Source: Chlorella sorokiniana (Eukaryota; Chlorophyta; Trebouxiophyceae; Chlorellales; Chlorellaceae). Taken from it: DNA of 64,000 bases. Positions 32,148 through 44,085 of this stretch are shown one piece after another; positions within the stretch are counted from its first letter, which is position 1, and every line of letters begins with the position of its first letter. The translations under genes and the position numbers were made by a program. Location: assembly GCA_025917655.1 (NCBI GenBank), contig CP084615.1:2852001-2916000 (forward strand), written 5' to 3'. The notes below the pieces were generated by a model that had not been told where the DNA came from, searched no databases, and was given only the letters and a program-made list of their open reading frames with translations.

Positions 32148-32957
32148 ATGACGACAGACCGTTGCGGTCGCGCTTTGCGGCGATGGACCTCGGCGCCGGC
32201 TGTTCTCTTGCTTGTGCTCCTTCTGGCGGCGCCACCCGCCAGGTGGGAGCGGTGGGCACTGGGCTGTGCTGCCTGTGTATCGAGCCTAGGTCAGGGAATG
32301 AGTACCGGCATGGCTTGCATTCGCTGCAGGTGCAGCCGAGCGTTGCGGCAGCAGGGCGGCACGTGCCCGACCTGGTGCCTGGCGGCGACTGCCTTACCGC
32401 CGAGGTGCCTGCCGGCGGCACCGCCACGCTGGCTGCGTACGCCGACGTGGGCCCCGTGTATGTGGCGGCCGAAGCGCTGGTGGGTGCTGCAGCTCATTCG
32501 GTTGGATTGTTCGCGCCCTGGGCGCCAGCAGCGGGGTGACCGAGGCGGTGGCAGCGACGCCGCCCTCCGCTTGCCCCCGCCTGCCGCCCGCAGGACGACG
32601 CCAGCCCAGACGGCCCCAGCAGCTTCTCGCTGGAGCTCTGGAGCTCTGCCAGCAGCAGCGGCGCCTCCGGCAGCAGCGAACAGCAGCAAGCGGCGGCGGC
32701 GGCCACCGCCGTCGGCTGTGCGACCACGCCCGTCGTGGACCCTTGCCCCGCCCCCGCCGCAGTCAGCGTGCGCGTGGCGTGCCTCAACAGCGGCGGCCGG
32801 CCCTGCCGCCTGCGCCTGGCAGCCTACATGAGCGCTTGCCCGGGGGGCCGCCGCCGCGAGCAGTGGCAGTGGCAGGCGGCAGCAGCGGCAGCGCCCGGCG
32901 ACAGCAGCAGCAGCGGCGGCGACAGCAGCAGCGGCGCCGGCGGCAGCAGCGCTGGAG

Positions 32958-32992
<35 letters not shown>

Positions 32993-33457
32993 GGGGGGTC
33001 AGCGCAACGACGTGGGTTGTGGTGGGCGCTTGCCTGGGCGGCGCCGCGCTGGCAGGTGGGTGAGCCTGAGTTGGATGGACTTAGTTTGATGGGTGGGGCC
33101 TATCCTCGCTCTGCACGCCGCGCCGGCAGCGGTCTGCCTCCCAAGCGGGCTGCACATGCCCATGCCGTGGCGGCCAGCGCTGTGATACGCATAGTGCTGA
33201 ATGGTTCACATCTGGCTTGCTGGCTGCCCCTGTGAGCAGCTCTGGTGACGTGGTGGCTGTGGCGGCGGGCGCGGCGGCGGCGAGCGGCAGGCGACGCCGA
33301 GGCTGGCCTGCCCCCCACCCCCCGAAGCAGCAGCAGCAGCAGTTCTTGGTGTCAGGCGGCGGCGCGCCCACCAAGCCGCTGGCGCCGACGCTCCTGGCGG
33401 CAGCGGGCGGCGGCGTGGCGCAGCCGCCCCGCTCGCGGCCCCCGCCGCCGCCGTTAG
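32148..33457 (+). CDS. Receptor-family copy 1: signal peptide, five-Cys ectodomain, TM helix, basic tail
   Basis: Exon 1 (32148-32242) encodes a signal peptide (MTTDRCGRALRRW, then SAPAVLLLVLLLAAPPA). Exon 2 (32330-32479) contains GGDCLTAEVPAGGT. Exon 3 (32594-33055) begins DDASPDGPSSFSLEL and carries the five cysteines (GCATTPVVDPC, ACLNSGGRPC, YMSAC), a long Ser-rich linker and the helix TTWVVVGACLGGAALAG. Exon 4 (from 33240) encodes LVTWWLWRRARRRR, a stop-transfer juxtamembrane segment. Signal exon phase 2, ectodomain exon starting in phase 0 and TM exon ending in phase 1 are shared with the copies at 36560 and 42629. The frame slips at a run of six G (32993-32998). As read, the tail stops at TAG 33455-33457, but one more slip in the C-rich stretch near 33312-33322 would join it to the DNase II block. 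Function unknown; cell-surface recognition is inferred. Confidence 0.6.
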
Positions 33458-36210
33458 CCGCATCTGGTTCTTCGGCTACAAGCTGCCCGCCCGGCGCACC
33501 GTCTACGCGACGGATTCCAGCCGCAGCGGCGGCTTGCTGCAGCGGCACGAGTGCGTGGATGCCTGGCTGGCGGCGGCGCTGGCGGCGGTTGTGCCTGTAC
33601 CGCAGGGCTGCCTGCTGTACAACGACGACCCGCCGACGGAGCGCCCGACGGAAGCCCCACCGGTGCGGCGGCGGCAGCCCGGGGGAAGAGGGAGAGAAGG
33701 TTCCTTGCAGGGACGTGCACTGCTAGGGGCTTGCGGTTGCTGCCAACACATCGCATGGACGGCCGTGGAAACAGGGGGAGAGGTTCCCCAAGAGGTGTTG
33801 GATCTGCTGGCTGGCTGTTGCCGCTGCCAACGCACCGCATGACTGGACCCCCAGTGTTTTTGCTCTGTGGCGGGCTAACGGGCAGCCCGCCGCCGCCAGC
33901 CAGACGCTGTTCCCAGCTCCGCCTGGCTTAATGGGAACCCCGGACCCGTCCACTTCCTCCACAGCCGCTCTGTTCCTCATGAACTGCTGCCTGGCAAGCC
34001 GAGCTTTGCTGCAAGCACGGCGCCCCTGCCTCCCCCGCCTTGCCCTCTCAACTGCAGGCTACGCCCGGCCCGTGCAGTACAAGCCCTGCGGCCACGCCAA
34101 GGGGGTGGTGGTGTGGGACTCTCACGCCGTGGCCTGGCTGGTACACTCGCTGCCGCGCTGGCCCTGCCACGCCGCCGCTCGCCCCTCAGGGGTGGCCCCA
34201 GGCGGGCTGTCCCCGTGCAGCCCAGCCAGCTGGATCGCGGCCAGTCGCTGCTGCTGGCGGCGCTGCCGCGGGGGAGCTGGCGGCGGTGCTGCGCCAGGTG
34301 CGCCACATGCAGGTGAGACCACTGGGGAAGCTGCGCTGCTGTTGCTGTTTGTTAAGCCGGTACGGAGTGGGCGTTTGGCCGGGGGAGTGGCTAGCACTGC
34401 AGGGAAGAGGTTGGCAGATGGGTGCGTGCGGCGCGGCTGCGCCACGCCCAAACGCAGCCCCTGCCGCTTCCTGCAAGAGCGCTCCGCTGCTTCGGCGCCT
34501 CCTCCGCTGGTTTTTTTAGGGTTTTTAGGGTCCCTAAATCGCCTCCCGCTGCTGCAGGCGCTGGTCTACTTTGCAACGGACCCGCTCCTGTGGCCCCACC
34601 AGCCGCGGGACTACAGCGGGCGCAGGGGCGGGGCTTCCTGGAGGTGCCGCTGGGGTGAGGCTGGGGAGAAGCTGGGGAGAAGCTGGGATGGCGGTGGGGT
34701 GTTTGTGGGGAGAAGCTGGGATGGCGGTGGGGTGTTTGTGGGGAGAAGCTGGGGTGAGGCTGGGGCAAAGCTGGGTAGAAGCTGGGATGGTGGTGGGGTG
34801 ATGGTGGGGAGGAGCTGGGGTGCCGCTGGGGCGAGGCCACCCGCTGGGGTTGCCGCTGCAACCAGCATCACCCTGCCGGGCAAGGCCCCGCCGCGCCGCC
34901 GCCGCCGCCTGCTTGCCAAGATGGGGCCTGGCCCCGGCCCTGCTGCCCCACTCACGAGCCCCAGCTGCTCCCCCTGCTGGACACTCACAGCCGCCGCCGC
35001 TGCTGCTCCCCTTTCGGCCGCACGTTAGCCCTGCAGCCCCTGCTCCCCGCCTCTGCATCCCACCCTCGCACTGGCTCTGACAGCCTTGCCTCGCCACCCA
35101 CGATGCCCCCCACCCCCCACCACGCAACCCCCGCCTCCACCAACCCCCACTTCACCTCCGCAGCCCCGGCCTGTGGCACCTAGCTCTCCCCCTCCCCCCC
35201 ACACACACACACACACACACACACAACCCCCGCCTGTGCCAACCCCCTCTCCTCAGCCCCGGCCTGTGGCACCTAGCCAAGGCAAACGAGCCGGAGGCCG
35301 ACTTCTACGAAGAGCTGGCGGCGCGGCGGGGCGGGCGCTGGCTGGTGCGCACCAACCTGCACACCAACCAGGTGGGGGCTGTGCTGCTGGGGCGGTTGAG
35401 CGGGGAGGCACGGGCGGGGCAAGGCGCGCTGCCCAGCTGCCAGCCGCCGATGTTTCCCCGTGAGGCTGCGGGTCGGTGGTTGGGGTCAGATGGGACGGTA
35501 GGCGGCAGGCCTGCCAGGCGCAGGCACCCTGTATGCAGCTGGGCAGCGGCACGGCAAGGGATGTATCACCCTACATTGATGTGGGCAGGCTGAGGATGCA
35601 GCCGACCGAGATGCACTGCAGACAGGGCCATGGCACAGCTCCCTGGCTGCGGGTGCTGTGAAACGACGATTCCTGCACACGCTTCGACCTCCCCATGCCG
35701 CCACGCCGCCCTGCCGCAACCGCAGGGCGCGGGGGCCAAGTGCGCCTCCACGCCCAGCGTGCAAAACGTGACCACGCTGCGCGTGCCGGGCCTGGACCGG
35801 GAGCCGTACAGGGCGGGCAGCGAGCACGCCAAGATGGCGGTGTGCGTGGGCGCACGGCAGGGAGGTGCGCGTGTGGCGCCGCCAGCGCCGGTGCCCTGCC
35901 AGCGGGGGCCCGCACGCATCATGCCCAGCTGGTGCCGCCTCCCGGGGGGCGCCTGGCCAGGCATCCGAGCCGAATGCGCAGACATATGCACGAGCGCCGC
36001 GCAGCTCCTTTGCGTCCTCATATCTTCATCTCACCTTCACAGCCTTCCTGCTGGCCGCCACCGCAGGCAACCCTGCCTGCCCGCTGGCGCTGTGGGCGAC
36101 CTGAACAACACGCGGCCGCAGCGGCGCGCGGCGGCGGCGGCCTGCTGCTGGCCTCGCAGCACCTGAACGACGTGCTGCGCCTGATGGCTGTGGAGGTTGG
36201 TTTCCCGTAA
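33420..36210 (+). CDS. DNase II-like endonuclease domain, separate gene or fused to receptor copy 1
   Basis: DNase II is an acid endonuclease of lysosome- or vacuole-like compartments. The blocks match the family in order: IWFFGYKLPARRTVYATDSS (33465 onward), GCLLYNDDPP (33607-33636), then exon 34058-34312 with CGHAKGVVVWDSHAVAWLVH (the GHxKG motif) and LDRGQSLLLAALPRG. Next are ALVYFATDPLLWPH (34558 onward), LWHLAKANEPEADFYEELAA and WLVRTNLHTNQ (35257-35370), SEHAKMAVC (35726-35848, the second HxK motif with the catalytic His), and VGDLNNTRPQR with GGGLLLASQHLNDVLRLM, ending TAA at 36208-36210. Both HxK motifs of the family are present. Single-base slips near 34190, at ggggg 34270-34274 and near 36120 break the frame. 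I cannot find a separate start codon with a signal peptide; the 5' edge overlaps the tail of receptor copy 1, so a fusion is possible. Confidence 0.72.
34511..34530 (+). repeat. Telomere-like T(n)AGGG doublet in an intron
   Basis: Two consecutive T-rich AGGG units (T7AGGG, T5AGGG) lie in the intron upstream of 34558. They contain TTAGGGTTT, the complement of the plant telo-box, and resemble the TTTAGGG telomere repeat of Chlorella. Two units are too few for a telomere. Confidence 0.5.
34655..34835 (+). repeat. Intronic minisatellite, about 33-bp unit
   Basis: Imperfect copies of ggggagaagctgggatggcg plus ggtggggtgtttgt follow each other, with shorter ggggagaagct sub-units at both ends. The array sits directly after the exon ending near 34660 in the DNase II-like gene. 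Confidence 0.85.
35161..35277 (+). repeat. 24-bp direct repeat duplicating a splice acceptor of the DNase II-like gene
   Basis: Identical 24-nt copies at 35161-35184 and 35254-35277 each carry the CAG acceptor and the first codons of the exon that continues LWHLAKANE. Only the second copy leads into the conserved exon; a (CA)n tract lies between the two. Confidence 0.88.
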
Positions 36211-36559
36211 CAGACCCACACCCAGGACCGGCAGGCTACCTGTGCATCGCAAGCTTGCACAAGCTGTGATGAACTGTCACGCAAACGTCGAGTGGCGGGG
36301 AGCAGCAGGCGGCGTGGCCTTTGGGCACACGGCGGAGCGCCAACGCTGCAATGCCGCCTTTTATGAATGATTGAAGCTCCAATCGGGCGTGGCCGGAGAT
36401 CTGACAAGGGGAGCATCTCGGAGTTTGCGCAGCGCACAGCACCGGCACATGGTTCATGTCGCATGCTGTCATGATGCCGCATTTCTGAGGTCAGCCGCGC
36501 ATGGCAAGCAGCATGTGAAGGCGGGCTACGGCCCGGTTGTTTTGGACCTGACAGGCGCG
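36211..36559. other. Intergenic region upstream of the receptor kinase
   Basis: About 350 bp separate the DNase II-like stop from the receptor-kinase start codon. No conserved coding block was seen; it should hold the kinase gene's promoter. Confidence 0.5.
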
Positions 36560-39500
36560 ATGAGTGCCGGCTCGCTTGTGTTCAGGTCTCTCACGCTCTT
36601 TGTGGCGGTTGCAGCGGCAACTGCCCACATCGTCAGCAGGTGACAGCCGATGCTAGGGGGTTTGTTGCCCGCGTGCGACATGCGGTTCTATTGTTCGCGG
36701 TTGTTACCCGGTTCTGTGCTGTCCTGTGAAATGCTGCGTCCCCTCCCCATGGTGCAGGCCCCAGGGCAGGCGCAGCCTGAAGCAGGATTCTGCCTGCAGC
36801 GGTGTGCAGCCGTCGACGCTCCAACCTCGCACCACCTGGGAAAAGCTCCTCAGTTCCGGTGAAACTGATTGGTTCGATGAGGACATTCCGCTGACAGATG
36901 TGGTCTGGGTAAATGCATCCTCAAGTGTGAGTCCTTGCAACATGGCCTGCTGCCGGCAATGCGGTACAGGGCGGGATGGGCACATCTTGCTGTCTCAATA
37001 TGCTTTGCTGGAAACCATCCTTTGGGCAACTGGGGCCATAACATGTGGCTTTTGATATTGTAGGATGCAAACAGCCCAGAAGGACCCAGCAAGTTTGAAG
37101 TGTCATTGTGGCGCTTAACCAGCGAGGATGCGGTCATGTTGGAAGTGGTTGGATCAGTGGATGGCTGTGCCATCATGGATTCTGTGAAGGATTTATGCTA
37201 CACTTTCGGTCACACGGGATACAGCATCGATGTTGAGTGCTTCAACGAAGACGTAGACCGCCCATGCCCCGTTTCATTCACCCTTTACACCAGCAAGGAG
37301 GCATGCCCACTGCCTGGCAGTGCAGGCCCAGGCGGCACTGCTCCCCAGAACCCTGGTCCACCTTCAGCTGGTGGCACTGTTTCCCAAAGCCCCAGCCCCC
37401 CAAAATGGTGGCACTGTTTCCCAGGACCCCAGTCCCGTCCCCGATGACGGCGGCACCGGCAGCACCAGCTCCAAGACCGGCATCATCGTTGGGTGTGCTG
37501 TGGGCGGCGCCCTGGTTGCCGGTGAGGCCCTCGTTGCTTTGCAGTCATGACCGCATGCATTGGACTCTCGTTTATTGGCTCCGCGCCAGTGATTGCCTTT
37601 GCTGCCTTCGCATGCAACAATTTGCATTGCAACCGCTCTGTTGGACCCTGTTCTGGTGCTCGCAGCAACGTCTTTGCAACAGCTGCCGAATGCAAGGCCT
37701 GACACAAGATGCCTTCACCATGCGTGCGGCGGGCAATACACATGGCAGATGTCGGTGATCTGCACCTGGTTCCCCTCTGTGCAGGCCTCGCTGCCTGGCT
37801 GTCATGGTGGCGCGCACGCAGGCGCCGCCGCCAGGCTGAGAGCGGCACGCTGGGAGCTCCCGACGACCAGTACCAAGGTATGGACAAGCTCGATTCGTTG
37901 GTCGTTGGCAGCAAAACGACCGATGGGGACAGAAGCAGCAGCGATCGTGATGCCATGCCGGGCCCGACCACCAAATCCACCAGGTGGGCATGTGTGGACG
38001 CCTTCTTTTGAAAGATTGTCAACTGCACTGCCACTTAGCCCGGCTGCTTTGGCCATCGATCAGGAGTGCACCCTCAGACCTCCAATGTGCACAAACGCAG
38101 GGATCTGCCAGAGACGCTGTCGCCCGGCAACGTCACCAGCATTCAAAGGGGTCTGCTTGACACCTTCCTGCCCAAGACCGGCTCTCACATGGTCTCCAGC
38201 CAAAGCAACAGGCAAGGCTGTCCCCGGGCAGTTCAGCTGCTCGATGGCTGCAAGACGCATGTTACACGCTCACTCCCGTGTTGTGCAAGCCACGTGTCAC
38301 TCCCTTGCTTGTTGCAGCCTCCATTCCTTGAGCAGCGACCCACTTCTCTCCTACATCTCCTCCGTCATGGCTGCCCAGCCCCAGGCTTCCAGTTCCGACG
38401 GGCAGCCCGGCAGCGCACCCCCCCCACTTCGCCGCTGGAGGGCCTGCGGACAGCGCCCCGCTGCCACCCTCATCGAGCAGTGGTGGCGTGCTGTTGCGTG
38501 CGGATGTGCAGCAGTGGGAGGTGCAGTGGGGAGAGCTGCAGGTTGACAGGCCCATCGGCCAGGGCAGCTTTGGTTGGGTGTACCTGGCGCAGTGGCACCA
38601 GACCTCGGTGGCCTGCAAAATACTAACAAAGCAGGGTGAGGTGCCAGCTGCGGCAGGGGTGCCAAGTGCCAGGTGCAGCTTCAGGCTTGGTTGGCACAAG
38701 CATTGGCTCAAGCCGCATTACCCACGCCTGTAGATTCTTGTGTGCTGCAGTTTCCGCCGCTGAGGGGCTGCGCCTGCCGGAGCAGACGATGCAGGCCTTG
38801 CAAGAGGTGAGGTCCACTTTGCTCTGGAGAAGGGCCTGAACACCACAGATGCGTAATGCTCATGGGGTTTCTGATTCCTGATTGACAGCCCAGCGCTGAG
38901 ACCCTGGGTGTGCACCTGCCATGCTTGGCTGGAGGCTTCCGTCCTGCACAGTGGTCTGTCCCGCACTGAATGCAGGAGAGTGGAGTCATGGCTCGAATGC
39001 GCCACCCCAACATCGTCTCCTTCATGGGCCTGTGCGCCATGCCGCCATGCATCCTCACCGGTGAGTTTGTCGCGTGGCAGTGTTTGCCATGGGCGAGCGT
39101 CTACCAACGACCACCAATGAATGTTACCTGTTGCGGTCCAATGCAGAGTACTGCCCCAACGGTTCGCTGTACGAGCTCCTGCGCCGCCCTGACGCCCAGG
39201 CCAGGCTGACCTGGCGCACACGGGTGGGCATGGCGGTGGACGCCGCCCGCGGCGTGCTGTACCTGCATAGCCGCCAGCCGGCCATCATCCACAGGGACCT
39301 GAAGAGCCCCAACCTGCTGGTGGATGCGGCTTGGCAAGTCAAGGTGTGTGGGCGACAGCTGCTTTCCTCGCCATGTGTGTTACATTATTGATGATCGTTG
39401 AACGGTGTTTTCATTCTGCTCCATTGCACCACACACTGGCACCACCACCGGCCTAGGCCTGCAGGTGTCAGACTTCAACTTGTCAAAGATTTTGAGCGGA

Positions 39501-40158
39501 TCTGAGGATGACAGCAAGTTTGTCAGCAGTAGTAGCAGCCCTAACAACCCCTTGTGGCTGGTGGGTGGCATAGCATGGCACTATGGCCTTGTGTGGAAGA
39601 TTTGACAATGCGCCAACGACAACCCTGAGTTGCGTGCAGGCGCCCGAGTGTTTAGATGGCGGCAAGGCGCTGCCAGCGTCAGACGTTTACTCCTATGGCC
39701 TGATCTTGTTTGAGCTGCTCACGTGGCAGCTGCCGTGGGGCTCCGCCTCGTCCTTTGCGGTGCGTTTTCGCTGTGCAGATCAACATATGCCCTTTGCGCA
39801 GCGTCAACTGTTCATGGTTTGAGACATGTGTGTGGGTTTCTCCTGCTCGCAGATTGCTAGCACTGTCACAGCTGGTGGCCGGCCAGCGGTGCCGCCGCTG
39901 GAGGTCCTGCCCGGCCCCGACAAGCCAGACCCTGCCAGCTACGACGCCTTCTGCCAGCTGATGAGGTGGGGCCTTGGTGCTTCACGGCCGCAATGCCTCG
40001 CCCTGCACCCCGTGCAGTCAACAGGAGCTGAGTTTCACCGATGCACTGCATGTGCACATGGCCGCTGCAGGGAATGCTGGGCCCAGGAGCCGGCGGCTCG
40101 CCCTCCCTTCGCCGCAATAGTGCCCCGCCTGCGGGCGCTGCTGGAGGGGCAGCCGTGA
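36560..40158 (+). CDS. Receptor-family copy 2: receptor-like TKL (Raf-like) protein kinase
   Basis: Exon 1 (36560-36639) encodes a signal peptide (MSAGSLVFRSLTLFVAVAAA). Exon 2 (36758-36926) and exon 3 (37064-37521) carry the ectodomain: DANSPEGPSKFEVSLW, then GCAIMDSVKDLC, ECFNEDVDRPCPVSF, SKEAC, a Pro/Gly/Ser linker with a repeated GGTVSQ, and the TM helix TGIIVGCAVGGALVAG. Exon 4 starts LAAWLSWWRARRRRR. The kinase domain lies in exons ending 38635, then 38751-38806, 38976-39060, 39147-39343, 39465-39560, 39640-39759, 39853-39965 and 40071-40158. It has the P-loop GQGSFGWVY, the VACK lysine, MRHPNIVSFMG, HRDLKSPN, DFN in place of DFG, APE, DVYSYGLILFELLTW and the C-lobe ARPPF. Frame slips occur at c6 (37396-37401) and c8 (38418-38425). 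The layout predicts a plasma-membrane receptor kinase; its ligand is unknown. Confidence 0.85.
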
Positions 40159-42628
40159 ATGGGCTGTGTCACGCACTTGGGAAAACTGCATGCCTCATAC
40201 AGTTCGCTGGCATGTCCCTGCCGCCAGCGCCATCCGGCGGTTTTGCAACACCTGCCACACTGTGCACTTCAATTCAGCGTGCTCGCCTATGCCTGTGTGC
40301 ATCATCTTTGCTGACATGCGCCCCATTGCACTTTGACTTCCACGATGCCACTGCCACATACATACTCCAGTTTGCGACAGCAAACTGCCATGCCGAGCTT
40401 TGCACTGCTTCGCTTGCACCTCCAGCGGACTGCCGCAGTATGAGGGCCCTGCACCCGTCTATGCCAACGAGAGCCCCGTTTGTCACTGATGAAACAGCAT
40501 TGTTGACCTGATTGCTCTAAAAGTGTCGAACGTGTCCTTGTAATTCCTGCATCACCACTTCACTGCTTCGCGCTGTGCCGACGTGCGCGCCGCCGCCACC
40601 CAGCCTGCATTCCGTCGAAATGCTCGAGGGGTTGGCCCGCGATGAGTGTCGCAACGCGTGCATAATTGCATGATGAAGGCGTTGTGTCCCTCTTGCGTGC
40701 AATCCCTGAAGCCGCACGATCGATCTTTGGTTGCTGCGGCTCATTAAGCAGTCTGTGTCTTTTTGGACCTTGTGGTGATTGCTGAGTACCTCATACATTG
40801 TCCCCAACAGCCCAGACAAGCACCACAAAGCGGCCGGAGTGCAGCACTTACGCCTGGCTGCAGCAATCGAAGCCCATGGTGCGGTTCACAAGCACCGGTG
40901 AGGTGTGAGTGGGATGCCTGGCCTGCAAGATGACTAGCCGTGGTATCCGCCCCTTGCTGCCGCCCAAAGGTGCCGCGCTCCCCCGCTCGAGCACTCCTTT
41001 CTGTTTGGCGCCCCGCATGGCCGTGCCTTCTGCTGCAGCAGCTTCGCAGGATCGGTACGTCAGGCGGCCGATGCTGGCCTGCTTGCAGCATCCGGCGGCG
41101 TGTCCACGCATGCCACAGCAGCCGCGCCGCTGCTGGTGCCAGAGCATGCCGCCGCAATGGCGCGGTGGGAGTGTCACATAAAAGTTTGCACCGCAAGCGC
41201 AGCCATTGCATGGCAGCAGCGTGGAAACAATGATCGTCGGCGGCGCCGCAGCCTGGACAGCACTGCAGAGGCATTTGGTGGGGCTGGTTGACTGCGCATC
41301 CGTCCCCACGCAGCGTTGCAGCGTGCAATGGGCTGTTCAGGGTGAATGTGCCGCTGGCCAGCGCCCTTTGTCCCCTTGCCGGGACTGAGGAGCAGCGCAC
41401 AATGCGGGCGCCCGCTCCAGTGCAGGCAGCCCGCCAACGTCGGCAGTGGGCTGTATGGAGAGTTTTCTGTCTTCGTTCAGTGACACGGCAAAGCCTGCTG
41501 GGCCTGGCAGAGCCTTGTCAGGGCTTGCGTGCGGAGCTGCAGCTGAGAGCAGGCGGTGTTGCACGAGGGCCAGCCTGGCTGCCCACTGCAGGCCGTTGGT
41601 TGCGGCCAGACACGCGTGCTTGAACTGGACACTCTGAACTGCCCAGCTCTGCTGGAGCAGGGCGGCAGCGGCGGCCCGTCCCACGGCCGCCAGAAACCGC
41701 CGCTCGGCGCAGTGCGCGGCGAGGGCTGCGCAGGGCTTCGCGCTGCGGCCTGGCACAGCTGCAGCTGCCAGGCGTGGGAGGGTCGCCATGCGCAGCTGCA
41801 GCGGCAGGTGCCGGTCAGATTGAAGCTCCTTGGAACTCCTTCGATGGGAGCAGGGTGGCGCGTGATCTTTCGCAAGTGAGCTGCCCAGCCTGGCTGCCCC
41901 CCTCCGCGACATGCACAGTTGCCCGGCGGTATGACTCGTCAGCGCGCGCTGCCTGCTAGGGGGTTTGCTGACAACACATCTGACAAGCGACTTTCTGACT
42001 TAGTTTTACCCCTGTCTCTTCTAGTGCGCAGATGGTGCTTCGCACCTCACCTGCTGCACCCGTGCACTGCATGAGCACCGGCGGCCAAGTGTTGGCGGGT
42101 TGCGGCGGCGGCCCATGCTGCCTCAGCTGCGCATGTAGCTTTGCAGCTGCCCCTTCGCTGTAACGCCCTTCACTGTCCAGTGTTGTTTTTCTTGCCTGAG
42201 TACCTCCTTCAAAGCATCAGTTGCACTTGCCGGACATCGGACCAGACTGGCAGCAGCTGCAGGCCTGCCGCTTAGGCGGGGTGGCGGCAACGGCGGCGAG
42301 ACCTCCTCTAGCAGACAAATAGGAATGCTCTAGGCATACCATGTTCACAGCAACTTGTGCGGCTGTCGACTCAGTCATCTGAGCGGGACCTCGTGAGGGT
42401 TCATCAGGCAGGGGTCACGACGACGGCAGACCTTGCATGCTGCGCCCGCTGACTCCATGCTGCGCCCTTCACGGGACCGCTCACGTTCATCCCGGATGCG
42501 CGATGAACTTGTGTAGTTTGTGTCATATTGCTCTGAATCACGCTTCGCTCAGGTATAGTCGTTGGGACAGCCCTCGAGCGAGCTCGCCTCTGGACTTGGC
42601 AGGATTTCTGTTTTGTCTGGCAGGAGCG
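40159..42628. other. 2.5-kb gap inside the receptor cluster, no gene assigned
   Basis: I could not assign a gene. A minus-strand open frame of 191 codons (41912-41337) containing MATLPRLAAAAVPGRSAKPC and a plus-strand stretch near 41060-41290 are the best coding candidates, but neither shows a family motif or a convincing splice pattern. TGTAA at 40538-40542 could end the kinase transcript. The segment 42000-42430 is AT-richer and probably includes the promoter of the next gene. Confidence 0.45.
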
Positions 42629-44085
42629 ATGGTTGCGTGTTTGCTACTACTGAAGATCATTCTGCTCATTTCGGCGACGGGCATGGCAACATCCGGGAGC
42701 CTGAGCGGGTGAGCTCAAAGTGCAACGAAGGGCCACCTGTTTTTTCCCTTTTGTGCTGGCATTATTGGTCGATGCCTGCGAATTTCTTCTTGAAATGTCG
42801 CACAAGGCATGTAACTCGTTGTTCTTGCCCTACCGTGCAGGGCGGGCGGCGGCCGCAGGCTGGCGCAGTACACCGCCTGTGGCAGAGAATTGTCAGACTC
42901 ATACATCGAGGAACGGACTGCAGAAATCCCTCCTCAAGAAGAGGTGGCCATGTTGAACTACTTCATTACACCCGAAAATGCGTTTTCCATTATCGCCGCA
43001 ACTTCGGTGAGCGCAGCAGTTCTCTGTCGCATAGGCGACAGCTGTCGCGGGCGCAACGTTGTGAAAGCCCCACTTTGATGCTTCACAATCTCATCCAATT
43101 CGTCTTCTCGTAGGATGTCGACAGCACAGATGGACCAAGCAGTTTTATTGTGTATGCTCAACCGGGCAACCAGCTGAGCGAGGCTATCCTCTTCAGGATT
43201 GACAGCGAGGGCGGCTGTGCTGCTCGGCAGTCAAATGACGACTGCACCAGTATAATTGGAGGAACTGTGCTTTTCAGTGTGTACTGCGCGAATGAAGACC
43301 GCCCATGCCCAGTCAGAATGGCGCTCTACGAGGACCCCAACTTTTGCCAGATTGGAACAGACATCTCCCCCGGCGTCGCCCCCAACTCCCCTTTCCCTTT
43401 GGATCCCAGTCCCTCCCCGCCGCCTGTCCCCCTGCCAAGCCCAAGTCCCAGCCCGGACCCCCTAGCGGCGGTGGCTCAGGTGGCACCAGTGCCTCCATCC
43501 CTGACACCCCGTCCCCATACTACGACGAGGAAGACAGCAGCGGCTCAGGCGTGTCCATCGGCGTCATCATCGGTGCCGCTGTGGGCGGCGTGGTGCTCCT
43601 GGGTGAGAACCTTGCCTGCGTTGTTTCCCCCAAAGCATGCGCAGCAGATGTTTTAGAATGTACCTACTCAATGGGTGAAGCAGGCAGCGCTGTGCTGGCT
43701 GCTTCGCTGCCCCTGGCTGAGCCTTCACATGGCAGAACAGCCCCTCTGCTGCCGCCACCTGGCAGGCAGTACATAATGCACCAACCGCAGCTGCTGCATT
43801 GCTGGCTGCACTCCCGACCCGTGCCGCCGCCCCTCATCTGCTGCAGCCGCCGTCATTGGCGGGCTCGTCTGGTGGCGCTCCCGCGTGCGCCGCCGCACGC
43901 GCGCTGCTGGAAACGAGCACGATATCGGCAAGGTTGTGGATGATGCCAACGATGCCATCGACACTGTCGACGATTTGAAAGCCGAAATGAAAGGCTCCAC
44001 CGACGAGGCCAACGATCGTGTCGACACTGCCGACGTGGCCGCCAGCGGTGTGGGCGCTGCGCTCAACTGGCTGAACTCCAGTTGA
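42629..44085 (+). CDS. Receptor-family copy 3: signal peptide, five-Cys ectodomain, TM helix, short acidic tail
   Basis: Four exons: 42629-42708 (signal peptide MVACLLLLKIILLISATGMA), 42841-43006 (RRLAQYTACGRELSD, RTAEIPPQEEVAM), 43114-43602 and 43847-44085. Exon 3 opens DVDSTDGPSSFIVYAQPG and carries GCAARQSNDDC, YCANEDRPCPVRMALYE and NFC, a Pro/Ser-rich linker and the helix SGVSIGVIIGAAVGGVVLLG. Exon 4 encodes AAVIGGLVWWRSRVRRRTR and a cytoplasmic tail with two related acidic segments, DDANDAIDTVDDLKAE and DEANDRVDTADVAAS, ending LNWLNSS with TGA at 44083-44085. There is no kinase, so the protein could be a co-receptor or decoy, which is inference. One base is missing in ccccc at 43458-43462, between ectodomain linker and TM. 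Confidence 0.78.

Follow-up and report, generated by a model that had tools for sequence, protein, structure and literature searches.

In plants, a protein that couples an ectodomain to a kinase is called an RLK and its kinase-less counterpart an RLP, following the definitions of PMC10834447. According to the passages of PMC2939053 and PMC10868138 that concern them, single-celled green algae possess few receptor kinases. The former passage gives Chlorella NC64A two LRR-kinase receptors and the other chlorophytes none. The latter source tabulates 1-4 RLKs for the chlorophytes that it lists, an RLK-type count that may leave out CTR1-like kinases.

We analysed a 64,000-nt stretch of the Chlorella sorokiniana assembly GCA_025917655.1 (contig CP084615.1, positions 2,852,001-2,916,000, forward strand), hereafter the window. 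Three neighbouring (+) genes, copies 1-3, span positions 32148-44085. As an earlier note had proposed, they form a tandem family with homologous ectodomains, each pair (z = 12.3, 7.5 and 17.6) scoring above 1000 of 1000 shuffles. The common exon design described there was also recovered in all three copies. Exon 1 (95, 80 and 80 nt in copies 1, 2 and 3) ends in phase 2 and is followed by a short exon 2 (139, 169 and 166 nt as modelled); exon 3 starts in phase 0 and ends in phase 1, at a GT donor. The features are as follows.

32148..32242, + strand: copy 1 exon 1, putative signal peptide (open frame, hydropathy 2.92 over 12 residues), GT donor, phase 2 end
32341..32479, + strand: copy 1 exon 2, carries cysteine 1; start uncertain (weak acceptor GCCGAG or frame break)
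32594..33055, + strand: copy 1 exon 3, cysteines 2-6, Ser-rich linker with frame change, first helix half; phase 1 end
33240..33459, + strand: copy 1 exon 4, second helix half, WWLWRRARRRR juxtamembrane stretch, basic tail to TAG
33461..36204, + strand: DNase II-like exons, in a frame different from the copy 1 tail (PF03265 above cut-off; frames by eye)
36560..36639, + strand: copy 2 exon 1, putative signal peptide, phase 2 end
36758..36926, + strand: copy 2 exon 2, carries cysteine 1
37064..37521, + strand: copy 2 exon 3, cysteines 2-6, linker, first helix half; phase 1 end
37785..37984, + strand: copy 2 exon 4, second helix half, SWWRARRRRR juxtamembrane stretch; 3' end uncertain
38064..38211, + strand: copy 2 exon 5, approximate, GC donor at end (frame and splice signals by eye)
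38318..38635, + strand: copy 2 exon 6, SDPLLSYIS motif, glycine loop, frame change, 8-C run at 38418
38751..40158, + strand: copy 2 kinase exons with HRDLKSPN and DFN motifs; spliced frame open to the stop (PF07714, E 4.7e-52)
38751-38806, 38976-39060, 39147-39343 and 39465-39560, + strand: first four of these kinase exons
39640-39759, 39853-39965 and 40071-40158, + strand: last three of these kinase exons
42629..42708, + strand: copy 3 exon 1, putative signal peptide, phase 2 end
42841..43006, + strand: copy 3 exon 2, carries cysteine 1
43114..43602, + strand: copy 3 exon 3, cysteines 2-6, Pro-rich linker, first helix half; phase 1 end
43847..44085, + strand: copy 3 exon 4, second helix half, VWWRSRVRRR juxtamembrane stretch, short acidic tail, stop

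Exon 2 of copy 1 can be joined in frame only via the weak GCCGAG acceptor, and no good donor fitted the exon 4/5 joint of copy 2. Helix hydropathy over 19 residues is 1.91, 2.21 and 2.75 in copies 1, 2 and 3, and exon 4 has a Trp/Arg-rich opening in each. The C-terminal parts differ, as had been claimed: a basic tail in copy 1, a kinase in copy 2 and a short acidic tail in copy 3.

In the three copies, exon 3 starts at D-x2-S-x-[DE]-G-P-S-[SK]-F, a motif with three matches in the six frames of the window against a mean of 0.0 in 100 shuffles of two-base blocks. The pattern C-x(8,9)-C-x(11,13)-C-x(6,8)-C-x(10,12)-C has four matches in the window, three of them being copies 1-3 (mean 0.23, maximum 2 in 100 shuffles of the same kind). 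The five-cysteine spacing initially described is present in 3/3 copies, but the count is six, with the first cysteine on exon 2, 70-77 residues ahead of the first of those five. The full spacing is C-x(70-77)-C-x(8,9)-C-x(11,13)-C-x(6,8)-C-x(10,12)-C, and the ectodomain comprises about 110-130 residues with six cysteines, which probably form three disulfides.

The view that this domain is unrecognised held up, as neither the Pfam and PDB searches nor the capped protein searches gave a relative. The CPL1-like domain (PF21671) was rejected at 12.2-13.4 bits, below the cut-off of 27.4, and the best PDB match by sequence had an E value of 0.14. Protein searches, which require shared 5-residue words and similar length and may thus miss relatives, returned two matches among a capped set of 7995 candidates scored, both to the Gly-rich helix alone, and none at E ≤ 10 among 290 candidates scored with the copy 2 ectodomain. 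By profile, the domain is absent from all 120 kinase relatives. AlphaFold models of exon 3 alone were poor (pLDDT 61.0 and 54.8), so that no fold supports the ectodomain; Foldseek with the better model found 412 matches with E ≤ 10, of which none reached 0.001 and the best had an E of 0.65, a result that is not interpretable. An exon-wise search of the 38.8-Mb genome with single-protein queries from copies 1, 2 and 3 and their consensus found the ectodomain in these three copies only, although diverged copies may escape such searches, whose first look is limited. Hence, from these genome and word-based protein searches, the family looks restricted to three copies with no protein relative.

Several weaker candidates were discarded. 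Two further profile matches in the window (E 0.017 and 0.087) were judged chance on view. Among 11 weak genome matches to copy 1 (E 0.0019 and up), five were translated: the top three belong to a single interspersed repeat, and by eye the remaining two look unrelated. The third match of a pattern search of the genome, on contig 12, is unrelated, and this search says little since a reversed-pattern control also gave two matches.

The six-cysteine domain could instead be a diverged form of a domain known from kinases of Chlorella vulgaris, for instance P0004 (D9Q98_004110), which is among the kinases nearest to copy 2, has an ectodomain of similar size and contains a stretch, YADITCFKPVDQCTVS, that resembles YSIDVECFNEDVDRPCPVS of copy 2. 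We consider this unlikely: the similarity lacks significance (z 1.06, a score that 146 of 1000 shuffles reach), hhalign gives a probability of 0.1%, P0004 is absent from the profile matches at E ≤ 10, and its ectodomain has four cysteines as against six.

The TKL kinase announced for copy 2 is confirmed over its whole length, the spliced sequence matching PF07714 at positions 1-258 of 258 (E 4.7e-52). Its nearest solved structure is Arabidopsis CTR1 (3ppz, E 8.4e-61, among the best 60 of 707 PDB matches), followed by an EGFR chain (2.3e-44) and then B-Raf (1.2e-36); as an indirect test, no plant RLK/Pelle kinase occurs among these best 60. As judged by this PDB ranking, the copy 2 kinase is CTR1/Raf-like (TKL). 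It retains Lys, HRD and APE, DFG reads DFN as in all 12 relatives compared, and it may be catalytically active.

One exon of this kinase has 20 further genome matches at E ≤ 1e-6, and the SDPLLSYIS motif of exon 6 is common to related kinases. A phase-1 intron divides the membrane helix in the trio and, as read from the donor sides, in seven of the nine related loci examined (C1, C3, C6 at 2585907, two at C7, C9 and C13); the helix is unsplit at the C12 locus and was not placed at C6 2590876. The ectodomains of related loci are an LRRNT_2 domain (C1), LRR (C12), RCC1 (C13) and an unnamed Cys-rich region (C3), and among the 120 database kinases listed, 21 have LRR-type and 9 RCC1-type Pfam domains. 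On the kinase tree, the LRR label requires 14 changes, at least 8 of them forced by starred branches, counts that are inflated because 80 of the 121 rows lack a named ectodomain, some of them being fragments. The labels cluster beyond shuffles (0/500 as low for LRR, 4/500 for RCC1), so that exchange is not free. Overall, sequence comparison shows this type of kinase joined to many different ectodomains, both here and in other trebouxiophytes, which means that outer parts were exchanged at least as much as inner ones. The idea of a lineage-specific receptor family with swapped intracellular parts stands for the tandem family and its varied C-terminal parts, but the swapping is wider and involves outer parts too. 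The phase-1 intron inside the helix may be a natural joint for swapping the two halves.

The earlier note had placed ectodomain, linker and helix on one exon; these parts and the phase-1 end are present, but the frame is not continuous. In 3/3 copies, ectodomain and helix lie in different frames, with the change inside the linker (between 37306 and 37444 in copy 2, and between 43354 and 43545 in copy 3). Copy 2 contains signal peptide, ectodomain, helix and kinase, with the frame broken in the linker and again in exon 6, which holds the 8-C run. Runs of 5-6 equal bases are located in the linker stretches where the frame changes, and all four frame-break intervals have runs of 5 or more bases; the copy 2 kinase exons (38520-40158) have neither runs nor breaks. 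Because a conserved HSP70 exon elsewhere (contig 3) also has a break, located at a run of five bases (G5), the linker frame changes are probably an assembly error. If the assembly is right, the breaks make the three genes pseudogenes or secreted proteins. Programmed frameshifting was set aside, as the direction of the change differs among copies. The copy 1 ectodomain has one 5-base run without a visible frame break, which counts against a run-linked error.

The frame changes could also be real and the cluster decaying, with at most secreted ectodomains still made. Such decay would fit the change in every linker, the additional one in copy 2 exon 6, the weak acceptor of copy 1 exon 2 and, by eye, the frame changes in the adjoining DNase II-like exons. 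However, the coding signal is back at once beyond the break, with the helix, the juxtamembrane stretch and a fully open nine-piece kinase frame, the ectodomain and kinase exons have no internal stop or frame change, and the breaks coincide with base runs just as in the HSP70 exon. We regard decay as improbable and retain assembly error as the preferred reading.

Copy 1 had been proposed to run through its basic tail into a DNase II-like domain. The basic tail is present, but the fusion is unproven: the tail stops at a TAG near 33456, and its frame is not that of the DNase II-like exon. These exons reach 26.6 and 27.3 bits with PF03265 (cut-off 23) over 28 of 326 positions only, and show by eye HAKGVV and a second HAK stretch. 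A true fusion that joins a DNase II enzyme to the ectodomain and helix would be consistent with their location within 220 nt after the juxtamembrane stretch and with the fact that neither start codon nor signal peptide was seen upstream in their own frame (the open frame contains no Met between 33249 and the domain, an unseen upstream exon being possible). Against it stand the TAG and the different frames, together with a DNase II gene on contig 1 that has its own N-terminal part; moreover, the cytosol is the wrong compartment for DNase II. We find such a fusion quite doubtful, and the exons would belong to a separate gene or to a broken fusion.

Least plausible is a short unrecognised intron in each linker, which would restore the frame in all three copies and leave the genes intact as assembled with no sequencing error, since the linkers are no longer than some 140-190 nt while the shortest intron modelled in these genes takes 98 nt, and in copy 2 a GGTVSQ protein repeat on both sides of the change argues for coding on both sides.

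The model that we favour, with reasonable though not strong confidence, is that copy 2 is a receptor kinase and that the receptor-like proteins of copies 1 and 3 lack a kinase, all three being tandem duplicates with a common novel ectodomain and a joint at the helix intron. It builds on the ectodomain homology, the exon layout, the kinase class and the split helix with its recurrence. The three paralogous genes would encode single-pass membrane proteins whose six-cysteine ectodomain is held out by the low-complexity linker, copy 2 being a receptor Ser/Thr kinase with a cytosolic CTR1/Raf-like (TKL) domain. Binding of a ligand or partner to the ectodomain could gather two or more copies, or change their orientation via the Gly-rich helix, and thereby activate the cytosolic kinase of copy 2. 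With their short basic and acidic tails, copies 1 and 3 would likely act as its partners, co-receptors or decoys. Tandem duplication would have produced the three genes, their inner parts being altered by gain or loss of all that lies downstream of the helix-cutting phase-1 intron; the cut helix of most related kinase loci examined would make the halves exchangeable without breaking frame or helix. In this model, we infer the disulfides, surface location, signalling and exchange at the helix intron.

More tentatively, Chlorellaceae might possess a receptor-kinase system derived from CTR1/Raf-like kinases, apart from plant RLK/Pelle and re-armed by exon exchange at the helix phase-1 intron, the six-cysteine domain being a newly born ectodomain with kinase and kinase-less versions side by side. 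If true, such a modular membrane family, with its joint for exchange between outer and inner halves, would give the green lineage a second way to receptor kinases, and receptor birth would be directly testable on a new ectodomain with one kinase and two kinase-less versions, 12 kb apart.

Compared with known DNase II (PF03265), the exons after copy 1 are alike in reaching the Pfam cut-off, but have several frame changes and no own start or signal peptide found. The Chlorellaceae CTR1/Raf-like membrane kinases P0004, P0005 (D9Q98_002144) and P0006 are 55-60% identical to copy 2 in the kinase and share with it a Gly-rich helix, a basic juxtamembrane stretch and a TDPLLSYIAS motif ahead of the kinase, whereas their N-terminal parts are unlike one another and unlike the six-cysteine domain. 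The chlorophyte LRR receptor kinases are likewise membrane kinases in a Chlorella relative, with a different ectodomain. With plant RLK/Pelle kinases and RLPs, the locus has in common the single-pass layout, exchangeable ectodomains and one ectodomain in kinase-bearing and kinase-less versions; unlike RLK/Pelle, copy 2 is nearest to CTR1 and then mostly to B-Raf and other MAP3-kinases, among the best 60 of 707 PDB matches.

Judged from sequence, the three tandem genes of the window (contig 5, 2852001-2916000, in a genome of 38.8 Mb and 15 contigs) are a real, old set sharing a predicted six-cysteine ectodomain that is unrecognised. All lie on the + strand and, as the earlier note had described, open with a signal-peptide exon ending in phase 2 and a short exon; exon 3 starts in phase 0 with D..S.[DE]GPS[SK]F and exon 4 carries a Trp/Arg-rich stretch in every copy. 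The ectodomains are homologous in each pairing (z of 12.3 for copies 1-2, 7.5 for 1-3 and 17.6 for 2-3; 0 of 1000 shuffles each), which upholds the tandem family, and their DNA identity of just 52-60% indicates that the duplications are old. Five cysteines had been counted. Their spacing stands, but inclusion of exon 2 raises the count to six, C-x(70-77)-C-x(8,9)-C-x(11,13)-C-x(6,8)-C-x(10,12)-C, an even number that would suit three disulfides. Base composition contrasts strongly between these paralogs less than 11 kb apart, with G+C 0.76 and GC3 0.89 in copy 1 (32594-32845), and 0.53 and 0.58-0.59 in copies 2 (37064-37327) and 3 (43114-43362). Downstream (3') of copy 3, from window 44691 onward, lies a Ser/Thr kinase gene, presumably SnRK2-like, whose first exons are clean by eye.

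The ectodomain has no assignment, as had been claimed: Pfam gave no score near cut-off, the best PDB match by sequence had E 0.14, and protein searches with the trio sequence returned helix matches only, or none. A look-alike stretch in P0004 (D9Q98_004110), a Chlorellaceae membrane kinase near copy 2, has no significant similarity to the copy 2 ectodomain. AlphaFold models of exon 3 alone were poor (pLDDT 61.0 and 54.8) and suggest strands only; the Foldseek list obtained from the better of the two was not interpretable. Given the stated limits of all these searches, we call the domain unrecognised, not unique.

The continuous frame from ectodomain through linker to helix is not borne out. 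In all three copies the two ends are in different frames, a point missed earlier, and each linker contains runs of 5-6 equal bases:

between 32842 and 33010, + strand, linker frame change of copy 1
between 37306 and 37444, + strand, linker frame change of copy 2
between 43354 and 43545, + strand, linker frame change of copy 3

In an HSP70 gene on contig 3 (1270400-1271200), the reading frame shifts at a G5 run between two profile-overlapping pieces of one exon, the sole clean case noticed by eye among 57 HSP70 pieces; another frame change in this gene may be an intron. Together with the base runs at the linker breaks, this is a sign of run-length errors in the assembly, which we take as the probable cause of the breaks. 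Real decay of the genes, the other way to read a break in every copy and a second one in copy 2 (exon 6, which has an 8-C run), seems unlikely: the copy 2 kinase exons from 38520 onward have zero such runs and are open throughout. The single run in the ectodomain exons (copy 1, 32751) comes without a frame break, a point against the error reading.

The basic tail of copy 1 had been thought to run into a DNase II-like domain. Instead, it stops at a TAG near 33456, the DNase II-like exon is in another frame, and no Met was found upstream of that exon. The PF03265 match passes its cut-off over 28 positions, and the DNase II gene of contig 1 has an N-terminal part of its own. A fusion is possible, though unlikely. 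Within the DNase II-like exons themselves (33461-36204) the frame changes several times, and no start is visible.

The TKL kinase of copy 2 is confirmed as a whole domain (PF07714 1-258, E 4.7e-52). Among solved structures its best match is Arabidopsis CTR1 (E 8.4e-61), and an EGFR chain (2.3e-44) comes second, ahead of B-Raf (1.2e-36); the nearest named kinases are from Chlorella vulgaris. A probable GC donor of a copy 2 intron lies at window 38212. One kinase exon has 20 further genome matches at E <= 1e-6 (59 candidates scored), the nearest on contig 3 (74% identity) and two lying on contig 7 (587500-597400) as tandem CTR1-like kinases whose kinase exons are nearly identical. Upstream DNA was read for nine of the 20, and the outer parts differ: LRRNT_2 (contig 1), LRR (contig 12), RCC1 (contig 13) and a nameless Cys-rich part (contig 3). 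The six-cysteine profile found the domain in none of the loci that it was run on (best E 0.21); two of the nine were viewed by eye. Separately, contigs 2, 4 and 13 carry near-identical copies of an interspersed repeat whose length is 1.5 kb or more.

Database relatives (120 listed of 124 at E <= 1e-60; 7992 candidates scored) vary likewise. Among those listed, Pfam matches comprise 21 LRR-type, nine RCC1-type, three ankyrin, three PF22633 (which we take to be discoidin-like), two PF07452 (presumably CHRD) and one PF02469 (presumably fasciclin); the six-cysteine domain occurs in 0 of 120. A quick tree was built from 121 kinase domains. LRR, present in 22 of its rows (among them P0006, a Chlorellaceae kinase with Pfam-confirmed LRRNT_2), takes 14 changes on it, no fewer than 8 of which are imposed by starred branches; for RCC1 the figures are 7 and no fewer than 2. 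The two labels are more clustered than in shuffles (0 of 500 and 4 of 500 as low, respectively), so exchange would be frequent, yet not free. The neighbours of copy 2 on the tree are three C. vulgaris kinases (SH-aLRT 85, branch not starred), each with a different N-terminal part. That outer parts were exchanged in this family is thus a supported reading.

A split helix may be the joint. In all three copies the helix exon stops at G|GT (phase 1), four residues past the helix GG. In seven of the nine related loci (contigs 1, 3, 6, 7 twice, 9 and 13) the exon end is likewise phase 1 and falls zero to four residues past the matching place, as read from the donor side. The contig 12 helix is unsplit, and the helix at contig 6, 2590876, could not be placed. 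Common descent of the helix exon would account for the agreement, and a phase-1 split would make outer and inner halves exchangeable in frame with the helix kept intact.

Overall, copy 2 is best read as a CTR1-like receptor kinase, and copies 1 and 3 as predicted kinase-less partners, within a larger modular family. The open-licence literature yielded no publication on Chlorellaceae CTR1-like receptor kinases or the six-cysteine domain. According to PMC2939053, Chlorella NC64A has two LRR-kinase receptors and other chlorophytes have none. PMC10868138 tabulates 1-4 RLKs for the chlorophytes it lists, and PMC10834447 defines RLKs and RLPs and reports LRR-RLK expansion in green algae, which argues against novelty of algal receptor kinases as such.
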